Assembly (NCBI GenBank): GCA_035574235.1
Contig: DATLZA010000063.1
Span: 1 to 36,021, forward strand
Direction of reading: 5' to 3'
DNA: 36,021 nucleotides
Origin: Planctomycetota bacterium
Lineage (GTDB): Bacteria; Planctomycetota; MHYJ01; JACPRB01
Below, piece by piece: positions 4,581 to 8,051 of this stretch (position 1 is the first letter of the stretch; each line of letters starts with the position of its first letter). Under the pieces are notes generated by a model. It made no database searches. It had not been told where the DNA came from and saw nothing but the letters and a program-made list of their open reading frames with translations. Both the position numbers and the translations under genes were made by a program.

Positions 4581-5372
4581 GTGACCCTCACGGTCGGGAT
4601 GGACGAGGCGGGGTACGGTCCGAAGCTCGGCCCCCTCGTCGTCGCGGCCGCCTGGGCGCGCCGACCGTTGCCGTCCTGCGTCCGGATCGCCGACTCGAAG
4701 AAGATCTTCTCGCAGGCCCGCGGCGCGGGGACCCTGGAGCCGGCGGTGCTCGGGTTCCTCCCGGCCCGGACCTTCGAGGAGCTCCTGGGGCGGCTGGGCG
4801 CCCGCAGGCCCTCCGCTCCCTGGTATCGGCGGCCGCTTTCCCTGGCCCCCCGCCCTCCGCTGGACGGCCTCGAAGGCGCGGCGGCCGTGATCCTCGACCC
4901 GGCGGAGTACAACGCCGCGCTCGACGGCCGCAGCAAGGCGGATCTCCTCTTCGACGCGGCCGAGGAGCTTTTTCTCCGCGTGCTCTCGACGGAAACGCGG
5001 CCGGTCCGCTTCCTCGTGGGCAAGCACGGCGGGCGGCGCTACTACCTTTCGCGCCTCCGCCGCGGGATCGCCCCGGACGCCGTCGTTCTGGAGGAAACGT
5101 CCGGCCGCTCCGCCTACGCGGCCCCCGGCGTGACGGTCGAGTTCCTGGAAAGCGCGGAGGACCGCCACGAGCTCGTGGCGCTGGCCTCGATGATCGCCAA
5201 GTACGTGCGCGAGTGCGCGATGAAGCTTTTCAACGACTGGTGGGCCGAGCGCTGCCCGGGGCTGCGTCCCACGGCCGGCTACGGGACCGACGGCACCCGG
5301 TTCTTCCGCCGCATCGAACCCCTGTTGCCCTCCCTGGGACTTTCGGCGGACGCGGTCCTCCGGCGCCGCTGA
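4581..5372 (+). CDS. RNase HII-like protein with altered catalytic acidic residues
   Basis: 263 aa starting at GTG. The N-terminus VGMDEAGYGPKLGPLV matches the RNase HII 'DEAGRGPxxGPVV' block (Asp8, Glu9), followed by DSKK (38-41), and the C-terminal half carries HELVALASMIAKYVRE (196-211) and PTAGYGTDGTRFF (230-242), equivalent to the HII 'ASxxAKxxRD' and 'GYGTxxH' segments. RNase HII cuts RNA in RNA-DNA hybrids using an Asp-Glu-Asp-Asp tetrad. Here the third Asp position falls in FLVGKHGGRRYY (no Asp) and the fourth is Glu211. The fold is therefore clear but canonical catalysis is doubtful; it could be a changed nuclease or a non-catalytic nucleic-acid binder. Leaderless promoter shared with dapF. 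Confidence 0.72.
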   Translation: MTLTVGMDEAGYGPKLGPLVVAAAWARRPLPSCVRIADSKKIFSQARGAGTLEPAVLGFLPARTFEELLGRLGARRPSAPWYRRPLSLAPRPPLDGLEGAAAVILDPAEYNAALDGRSKADLLFDAAEELFLRVLSTETRPVRFLVGKHGGRRYYLSRLRRGIAPDAVVLEETSGRSAYAAPGVTVEFLESAEDRHELVALASMIAKYVRECAMKLFNDWWAERCPGLRPTAGYGTDGTRFFRRIEPLLPSLGLSADAVLRRR

Positions 5373-5447: not shown

Positions 5448-6443
5448 ATGCGGCGGAAGGAGCGCGGCGCGCAGCTTCTGCGGATCCTGAAGCTCATCCG
5501 GCTCTTCGAGCACTCCCGGTTCGGACTCACGATCGCCGAGCTTCAGCGCGAAACGGGCGTGACCCGTCGGACGATCTACCGGGACCTGGCGCTTCTTGAA
5601 GAAGCCGGCTATCGCTTCGTCCGCGAGGGCGCCGGGGCCGGCGAGGCGCGCAAGTGGCGCTTTCCGCCGGGCCTGCAGAAGGCCCCCGGCAAGCCTTACA
5701 CGGAGTCCGAGCTCCTGTCGCTCTACTTCTGCATGAACCTGCTGCAACCCCTGCGGGGAACCCCCCTTCGGGACGGGATCGAGTCGCTCGTCTCCAAGAT
5801 CGAGGCGACGTTTCCGAGCGACGAGCGCGAATACCTGGGAGATCTCGTCTTCACCCACGTGGCCAAACTGACGCCTTCGAAGGACTATCGGCGCCACGCC
5901 GCGACCGTGAGCGCCCTCTCCCGGGCGTGTCTCGAGCACCGCAAGGTGGAACTGACCTACCGGGCCACCGACGACCAGTCGAAGACCTACGCCTTCTCCC
6001 CCTACTGCATCGCCTACTACGGCGGCGACCTCTATACGATCGGCTGGAGCGACCTGCGGCAGTCGATCCGCACGCTGCGCGTGGACCGGATTCTTTCGAT
6101 CCGTCCCACGACGCAGAAGTTCCAGCGGCCGGAGGACTTCGACCCCGAGGACTACCTGGGCCGGAGCTTCGGGATGTACTCCGAGGGCGAACAGACGCGC
6201 GTGGCCATCGAGTTCGACCGCGAAGCCGCGCGCGCGGTTCAGGAGCGCGAATGGCACCCCACCCAGCGGGTCGAGCCGCGCCCGGGAGGAGGGATTCTGC
6301 TTCGGATGACCGTGCAGGGCCTGCCGGAGGTCGCCCGCTGGGTTCTGTCCCACGCGCCCTACGCGCGGGTCGTGGATCCTCCCGAGCTGCGCGAGATGGT
6401 GGCCCGAAGCGCCGCGGCCGCCGCCCGGGCCCACGGAGGCTGA
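5448..6443 (+). CDS. WYL-domain transcriptional regulator (HTH-WYL-WCX)
   Basis: 331 aa. Residues about 9-62 form a winged helix-turn-helix of the HTH_11/DeoR type (LTIAELQRETGVTRRTIYRDLALLEEAGY). The WYL core follows at about 165-235, with LTYRATDD, ALYTIGW-like GDLYTIGWSD and a downstream IRTLRVDRI strand, and the C-terminal WCX extension covers about 245-325 with the typical HPTQRVEPRPGGGILLRM. WYL proteins usually sense nucleic acid or nucleotide ligands and often control DNA repair, phage defence or stress genes. This one has its own extended -10 promoter and a strong Shine-Dalgarno, unlike its leaderless neighbours. It precedes thyX by 45 bp with a separate promoter, so a regulatory link to thyX is only a possibility. 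Confidence 0.88.
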   Translation: MRRKERGAQLLRILKLIRLFEHSRFGLTIAELQRETGVTRRTIYRDLALLEEAGYRFVREGAGAGEARKWRFPPGLQKAPGKPYTESELLSLYFCMNLLQPLRGTPLRDGIESLVSKIEATFPSDEREYLGDLVFTHVAKLTPSKDYRRHAATVSALSRACLEHRKVELTYRATDDQSKTYAFSPYCIAYYGGDLYTIGWSDLRQSIRTLRVDRILSIRPTTQKFQRPEDFDPEDYLGRSFGMYSEGEQTRVAIEFDREAARAVQEREWHPTQRVEPRPGGGILLRMTVQGLPEVARWVLSHAPYARVVDPPELREMVARSAAAAARAHGG

Positions 6444-6452
6444 CCGAACCGG

Positions 6453-6480
6453 TTGCCCCCCGCGCCCTCCGTGCTATACT
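6453..6480 (+). promoter_or_regulatory. Promoter of thyX
   Basis: TTGCCC (6453-6458), 16-bp spacer, TATACT (6475-6480) with an upstream TGC extension. Only 8 nt separate the -10 box from the ATG at 6489, so the transcript is expected to start at or beside the start codon. A TTG at 6453 could extend the protein by 12 residues, but it lies in the -35 box and the extension has no ribosome site. Confidence 0.62.
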
Positions 6481-6488
6481 GCGGCACG

Positions 6489-8051
6489 ATGAGGTTCGAT
6501 CCCGAACCGGAAGTCGAGCTGCAGAACGCCTTCCGGGATCCCTACAATACCGTCGTCGCGGCCGCCCGCACCTGCTATTCCCCGCGCGTCGTCACCCCCG
6601 AGGACGTCGCCCGCGACGAGCGCGCCCGCCGGATCCGCGACCGCATCTACGACTCGATCTACGAGGCCGGCCACCACACGACGATCCAGCATCCCACCTT
6701 CCTCTTCGTGCTGCGCCGCGTCTCCCGCCAGTTCCTCTGGAGCTTCCTCCACGCGCACCCCTTCTACAACTCCGAGCAGGTCAGCCAGCGCTACGTCGAA
6801 GTCAAGCCCGAGAATTTCGCCACGCCGCCCCTCGAAGGCCGCGCCCGGGACGTCTACCGCGCCGCCATCGGCCGCATGATGCAGGCGTACTTCGACCTGA
6901 TCGAAAAAATCGGCCCCGACGTGGAGGCCGAATACTTCAGGCTCTACCCCGCCCGCCGGCGCTCGAAGGAGAAGTGGGAAAGCGCCATCCACAAGCGCGT
7001 CCTCGAAGTCGCCCGGTACGTCCTGCCCGTGGCCACCCACGCGCACCTCTATCACACCGTCTCGGGTCTCACGCTCCACCGCTACCGCCGGCTCTGCCTC
7101 CAGTTCGACACCCCGCTCGAAAACCGGCGGGTCGTCGAAAAAATGGTCGCCGCCGTCGAGGCGCTCGACCCCGACTTCTTCCGCGGGACGAACGACCCGG
7201 TGCCGCTCGAGGAAACCCTCGAATACCGCGCCTTCGTCGAGGCCGGACGGGCCCAGGGCGGCCCGGGCGGCGAGGACTTCATCCGGGAGTTCGACCGGGA
7301 TCTCGGGCCCTGGCGCTCGAAGCTCGTGGACCATAAGGCCCGCGGGGAGGCGACCCTCGCTCAGGCGGTCCGCTCGGTGCTCGGCCTTCCGCGCGAGAAA
7401 CTCCCGGACGGCGCGGCGATCGACCTCGTCCTCAATCCCGCCCGCAACCGGATCCTCGGCGAGTCGCTCGTCCTGACGACCCTTTCCAAGCTCTCGCGGA
7501 CGATGAACCATCCGCATTTCACGTTCCGCAAGAAGCTCTCCCACACCGCCGACTCGCAGGATCAGCGCCACCGGATGGTGCCCGGCTCGCGTCCGATCCT
7601 GCGCGCCCACTTCGTCCCCGGCCGACCGGATTACGTGCTGCCCCCCGTCCTCGAACGCAACGCCGCGGCCGCCGAGTCCGTGGCCGGGCTTTTCCGGCAT
7701 GTCTGGCGGGCGATCGACGAGCTTCTCGGGCTCGGCGTTCCCTGGGAGTTCGCGCAGTATCTGCTCCCGAACGCCTTCCCCATCCGCTTCGAGGAATCCG
7801 GAGATCTCCTGCACTTCCACCACAAGTGGACCACGCGCCTGTGCTACCTGGCGCAGGAGGAGATCTGGCGCTGCTGCGTCGAAGAAGTCCGGCAGGTTTC
7901 CGGGATCCATCCCCTCATCGGCCGGCACCTGGCGGCGCCCTGCGCCCTGCGCAAGACGGCCGGAGCCACGCCCTACTGCCCGGAAGGAAACCGGTTCTGC
8001 GGCGTGCGCGTCTGGGAGCTGCCCGTCGAACGCTACGAACGGGTGATCTGA
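6489..8051 (+). CDS. thyX: Tandem-domain flavin-dependent thymidylate synthase (ThyX-like)
   Basis: 520 aa, about twice the length of ordinary ThyX, which makes dTMP from dUMP using FAD and methylene-tetrahydrofolate. Both halves show ThyX features. N-half (1-about 235): FLFVLRRVSRQFLW, then SEQVSQRYVE (95-104), and ARYVLPVATHAHLYHTVSG (175-193). C-half (about 300-520): SQDQRHRMVPGSRP (356-369) and QYLLPNAFPIRF (423-434). The RHR triad of the signature RHRxxSxNExSxRY is HAH (88-90) in the N-half, which keeps the NSEQVSQRY part; the C-half keeps RHR (360-362) but lacks SxRY. The two halves thus look complementary rather than duplicated. Leaderless promoter. Convergent with the next gene (9 bp). 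ThyX family membership is strong; enzyme activity is inferred. Confidence 0.85.
   Translation: MRFDPEPEVELQNAFRDPYNTVVAAARTCYSPRVVTPEDVARDERARRIRDRIYDSIYEAGHHTTIQHPTFLFVLRRVSRQFLWSFLHAHPFYNSEQVSQRYVEVKPENFATPPLEGRARDVYRAAIGRMMQAYFDLIEKIGPDVEAEYFRLYPARRRSKEKWESAIHKRVLEVARYVLPVATHAHLYHTVSGLTLHRYRRLCLQFDTPLENRRVVEKMVAAVEALDPDFFRGTNDPVPLEETLEYRAFVEAGRAQGGPGGEDFIREFDRDLGPWRSKLVDHKARGEATLAQAVRSVLGLPREKLPDGAAIDLVLNPARNRILGESLVLTTLSKLSRTMNHPHFTFRKKLSHTADSQDQRHRMVPGSRPILRAHFVPGRPDYVLPPVLERNAAAAESVAGLFRHVWRAIDELLGLGVPWEFAQYLLPNAFPIRFEESGDLLHFHHKWTTRLCYLAQEEIWRCCVEEVRQVSGIHPLIGRHLAAPCALRKTAGATPYCPEGNRFCGVRVWELPVERYERVI

Follow-up and report, generated by a model that had tools for sequence, protein, structure and literature searches.

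A fused two-domain ThyX protein with its active-site residues divided between the two halves

Flavin-dependent thymidylate synthase (ThyX) normally works as a homotetramer with four equivalent active sites. In the DNA examined here, a stretch of 36,021 nucleotides from a Planctomycetota bacterium (the window), a single gene at 6489–8051 (+ strand; ATG at 6489, stop codon ending at 8051) encodes a protein of 520 amino acids with two ThyX domains. Very probably it is a flavin-dependent thymidylate synthase that arose from two fused and since specialised ThyX subunits, and that acts as a dimer with split active sites. The gene lies downstream of one for a WYL-type regulator (5448–6443). By eye, a TTGCCC (6453–6458) and a TATACT (6475–6480) element can be seen with a spacing of 16 bases, the second ending about 8 bases 5′ of the ATG; the transcript is possibly leaderless.

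Division of residues between the two halves

In solved ThyX tetramers, three subunits contribute to each active site (PMC6514825, PMC3498832, PMC11940539). In the Mycobacterium tuberculosis enzyme (Mtb), subunit A gives Arg95-His96-Arg97 and Arg199 to each site, subunit B gives Ser71 and Arg190, and subunit C gives Arg87, Ser105, Arg107 and Tyr108 (PMC6514825). PBCV-1 ThyX has Gln75 and Arg182 on one monomer, and Ser88 and Gln89 on another (PMC3498832); in Thermotoga maritima ThyX (Tm), His53 is supplied by a third monomer (PMC11940539).

Both halves of the fused protein exceed the curated cut-off of the Pfam Thy1 model (PF02511; 24.8 bits), the N-terminal domain (6525–7172, +) with 97.1 bits (E 9.8e-28) and the C-terminal one (7320–7913, +) with 63.2 bits (E 2.3e-17). 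Comparison with single ThyX by hhalign gives 99.3% and 97.1%, respectively, and the NCBIfam equivalog model for thyX (TIGR02170) is narrowly passed by the fused protein (89.1 bits; cut-off 87.9). An AlphaFold monomer built from an alignment of 104 sequences (pLDDT 92.8, pTM 0.90) was used instead of a poor model from 16 sequences (pLDDT 65.7). Its best 50 PDB matches are all ThyX, with TM-scores by target of 0.67–0.76 and one half superposed; no fused ThyX was found among the PDB matches listed.

For residue-level comparison, 104 distinct fused proteins were aligned, and their halves were mapped by profile comparison on T. maritima ThyX, the reference sequence of which was verified against the PDB. 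Three elements of the active site occur in the N-half only. The first is H62-H63-T64 (6672–6680, +), corresponding to Tm His53 (folate) and Thr55/Mtb Ser71 (FAD); H62 and T64 are found in 104/104 N-halves, and the C-half lacks an equivalent. The second comprises R80 (6726–6728, +; Mtb Arg87, dUMP), which is likewise invariant and is replaced by His in the C-half, and the dUMP loop NSEQVSQRY (N94–Y102; 6768–6794, +), including S99 (Tm Ser88/Mtb Ser105), R101 and Y102. Both S99 and R101 are present in all 104 N-halves, and position 102 is Tyr in 101 and Phe in three. The third is R176 (7014–7016, +), found in 104/104; it corresponds to Tm Arg147/Mtb Arg172, and its C-half counterpart (position 423) is variable and never Arg.

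The C-half, in turn, carries QDQRHR (Q357–R362; 7557–7574, +), corresponding to Gln75 and the FAD-binding RHR triad; Q357, R360, H361 and R362 occur in 104/104 C-halves and in no N-half. The same holds for R450 (7836–7838, +; Mtb Arg199/Tm Arg174, dUMP activation), invariant in the C-halves and facing a variable position (203) in the N-half. In place of RHR the N-half has H88-A89-H90 (6750–6758, +), conserved as H-[SAQ]-H in 104/104. This pairing assumes that the N-half carries one inserted residue; otherwise H90 opposes the RHR histidine. Both RHR arginines are gone from the N-half under either alignment. Overall, H88, H90, S99, Q100, R101, Q357, R360, H361 and R362 are invariant across the homologues.

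A sequence-only reading of the gene had placed HAH at 88–90, NSEQVSQRY at 94–102 and RHR at 360–362, with no SxRY in the C-half, and had interpreted this as complementary motif loss. All of these positions are as claimed, and the loss is real: the same split recurs in all 104 homologues, none of which has the complete RHR...SxRY motif within one half, and the motif is completed by combining both. The losses also go beyond this motif, as the equivalents of Gln75, Arg87, Arg199 and His53 are split too.

Sorted by the subunit that supplies them in known structures, the residues fall into a consistent pattern. The A-role residues (equivalents of Gln75, the R, H and R of the triad, and Arg199) are found in 104/104 C-halves and 0/104 N-halves, the B-role residues (His53, Ser71) in 104/104 N-halves and 0/104 C-halves, and the C-role residues (Arg87, Gln103, Ser105, Arg107 and Tyr108, the last as Tyr/Phe) in 104/104 N-halves and 0–2/104 C-halves. 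Thus, 13 of 14 positions contacting FAD, dUMP or folate are found in one half or the other and restricted to it, all as this assignment predicts, although the 13 form about six sequence blocks and hence are not independent, and at one of them 2/104 C-halves also carry Arg. The fourteenth, the B-subunit FAD contact Mtb Arg190 (Tm 165), is missing in both halves (Leu194/Leu441); a nearby arginine, Arg198, is invariant. The same division counts were obtained for 29 sequences found by profile, that is, without selection by motif pattern. The earlier proposal of a composite active site is thus well supported by the solved enzymes, in which RHR and the SxRY serine lie on different subunits, and all other tested contacts but one agree.

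It might be argued that the N-half alone is the enzyme, with HxH doing the work of RHR, and that the C-half survives merely in a structural or regulatory role. The N-half does have the stronger Thy1 match and most of the named contacts, including the equivalents of SxRY, Arg147, His53 and Thr55. However, Gln357, RHR and Arg450 are present in 104/104 C-halves, along with many further invariant residues, and a mere remnant would not retain precisely the arginine that activates dUMP along with the triad that binds FAD; such a role for the C-half is therefore improbable.

The C-half and its tail also contain four cysteines that the sequence-only reading did not mention, C452, C485, C497 and C504 (7842–8000, +), each in 104/104 sequences. 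They belong to a conserved C-half tail, PC-x2-R...P-x-CPEG-x-R-x-CG-x3-W, and are absent from ten aligned ordinary ThyX of the same phylum and from T. maritima ThyX. Their invariance points to a possible metal site, with structural zinc as the likeliest occupant. C452 lies two residues from the dUMP-activating Arg450. A rather unlikely alternative is that the cysteines bind an Fe-S cluster near the flavin, that a ferredoxin-like partner rather than NADPH reduces the enzyme, and that dead sites have been freed for structure or control. We know of no metal in any thymidylate synthase.

Predicted assembly and mechanism

In a 222 tetramer, the subunit roles are related by symmetry; if site 1 is formed by (A,B,C), the others are formed by (B,A,D), (C,D,A) and (D,C,B). 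With a C-half as A and N-halves as B and C, D is a C-half; sites 1 and 4 are then complete, and sites 2 and 3 have neither RHR nor SxRY. From this symmetry we infer that a single arrangement can accommodate all residues and that it gives a pair of chains two live sites.

Two fused chains would pair to give the usual four-domain ThyX body. To each live site, the C-half would bring RHR and the equivalents of Gln75 and Arg174, which would hold FAD and activate dUMP. A first N-half would provide Arg80 and, from the dUMP loop, Ser99, Arg101 and Tyr102, and a second N-half the folate/FAD helix with His62 and Thr64. The dimer would thus contain two live and two dead sites, its FAD content would be close to one per 58-kDa chain, and a lone chain would have no activity. 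Since D2 geometry and the division of residues together leave each chain pair with two complete sites and two dead ones, the dimer should be obligatory, and the fused protein is probably active only as paired chains.

The sequence-only reading had envisaged a single composite site at each interface, and a changed oligomer. The first part does not survive in the predicted pseudo-222 domain tetramer with its two live and two dead sites. The second holds for the number of chains: as both chains must lend their N-halves to every live site, the protein would be a dimer rather than a tetramer, but with the domain architecture probably unchanged.

Compared with ordinary ThyX (PF02511, TIGR02170; T. 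maritima TM0449 and the M. tuberculosis enzyme), the fused form has the same fold and the same set of FAD, dUMP and folate residues, would likewise build its sites between subunits, and replaces ThyA. It differs in having two domains per chain, split active-site residues and four extra cysteines, and, unlike the homotetramer with its four equivalent sites, two of its four sites are predicted to be dead. ThyA (PF00303) likewise makes dTMP, but has an unrelated fold, uses no FAD and is absent where the fused gene is present.

A sole thymidylate synthase

Profile searches of the window's source genome (4.06 Mb, 99.3% complete) found no Thy1 match besides the fused gene, and no ThyA. The notion of a second thymidylate synthase elsewhere in this genome, which together with lost FAD and dUMP contacts had been put forward as the sign of a non-ThyX role, was consequently dropped. 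The same picture emerges from other genomes. In a sample of the window's phylum, ThyA is found in 0/35 genomes with the fused gene and in 158/357 others (Fisher p 5.5e-9, which is optimistic as the genomes are related; the spread over phyla is independent of this value). It is also absent from all 38 fused-gene genomes examined from mostly other phyla. The fused gene is accompanied by no other ThyX in 34/35 and 38/38 of these genomes, respectively; over all 73, including the window's, ThyA is found in none and 72 have no ThyX besides the fused one. The lack of ThyA throughout, and of another ThyX in nearly all, supports a real thymidylate synthase, and the simplest reading of these gene inventories is that the fused protein is the working, sole de novo enzyme.

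The one case among the 73 with an ordinary ThyX beside the fused gene is G159 (contig C145, 8922–9521; a 220-aa frame); given 4% contamination, this ThyX may be foreign. Several genomes of the phylum (G008, G011, G017, G019, G033 and others) have partial ThyA matches, covering model positions ~106–230 in open reading frames of ~260–300 aa; these represent a divergent ThyA-like family.

Dihydrofolate reductase (DHFR) is required alongside ThyA, and is dispensable with ThyX. It is above the cut-off in only 1 of the 35 fused-gene genomes, as expected with ThyX.

Conceivably, the fused protein acts on another nucleotide or base rather than converting dUMP to dTMP, with thymidine obtained by salvage. 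ThyX-like UMP methylases provide a precedent (PolB; PMC5003785), and the genome of the window encodes a thymidine kinase. Against this stand the missing ThyA and other ThyX, the retention of nearly all dUMP contacts across the two halves, and the fact that roughly two thirds of the 35 genomes yielded no thymidine kinase; a switch of substrate is accordingly very improbable. Thymidine kinase in some fused-gene genomes does make salvage possible as an added supply beside the presumed synthase.

Distribution, origin and significance

The fused gene is widespread. A single-sequence search of genome contigs gave no relatives, but a search with an alignment did. In a first set of 60 genomes, made up of the window's own and 59 relatives, 16 carry it, as do 35 of 392 genomes of the window's phylum in the profile search. 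A pattern-plus-tblastn scan of named genomes yielded 546 relatives, of which 80 were kept, with titles from Omnitrophota, Elusimicrobiota, Planctomycetota, Myxococcota, Acidobacteriota, Nitrospirota, Spirochaetota, Chloroflexota, Bacteroidota, Ignavibacteriota, Bdellovibrionota and Pseudomonadota. In all, the 104 distinct full-length relatives with the same division come from at least 12 bacterial phyla. A search of phages and viral contigs found no fused ThyX.

Among cultured bacteria, Thermomicrobium roseum DSM 5159 carries the gene on a complete large plasmid (WP_012643046.1, 557 aa). Its product shares the fused architecture, the division of residues and the four cysteines; it is 45% identical, follows the division despite a variant motif, DAQNQRHR, and has an annotation, ‘FAD-dependent thymidylate synthase’, that is silent on fusion; the literature search turned up no paper on it. 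In Leptospira interrogans, the ThyX LA_1533, a candidate for the fused type, is listed with the mutated genes of an attenuated strain (PMC3789758).

Two relatives have interrupted frames: a fused thyX at locus L091 has an in-frame TAG at the conserved Ser192 (near locus base 4600), through an error in the metagenome-assembled genome, decay or readthrough, and one in G085 has a frameshift. Such cases might suggest that two neighbouring thyX genes were misassembled or have recently decayed, but the open frame and invariant motifs in 104 sequences from so many phyla, along with the complete T. roseum record, make this explanation negligible.

Not every genome with two Thy1 matches contains a fusion. 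In G006 and G034, the two matches belong to one ordinary ThyX into which a large, intein-like segment is inserted; there (L029 and L028, respectively), and probably in G035 (L012), ThyX is split directly after RHRTAC by an insert with an HNH-like segment. In G051, which has no ThyA match, a single-length ThyX (L013) has KYQ where RHR is expected, and ~27 extra residues precede its SxRY loop; other genomes of the same family, such as G111, G156 and G170, show two partial Thy1 matches, perhaps from the same cause.

A tree was built from 20 halves of each type together with 11 single ThyX. In it, N-halves and C-halves each form one clade (100/99) on a long branch; the separation of fused halves from singles is supported at only 92/65. 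This would fit one old fusion followed by specialisation, with long-branch attraction possible. Since long branches meet, duplication of one gene and joining of two both remain as origins.

Databases name these proteins ‘FAD-dependent thymidylate synthase’. A literature search for fused, duplicated or taxon-specific ThyX found no description, with subscription journals thinly covered, so that absence is not proof. The proteins are thus known as database entries, whereas the split site, the logic of subunit contributions and the cysteines seem not to have been described.

If the proposed reading is true, this form of the enzyme would make DNA thymidylate in a large part of the uncultured bacteria and in some cultured ones, among Planctomycetota, Omnitrophota, Elusimicrobiota, Myxococcota, Acidobacteriota and others. 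Should the Fe-S proposal hold as well, it would be a metal-containing thymidylate synthase. Evolution would have pulled apart the three-subunit site of ThyX, providing a natural test of which subunit supplies which residue. One type of site could be mutated without the others, which is impossible in a homotetramer, and the fused form would suggest that two of the four ThyX sites suffice for life.
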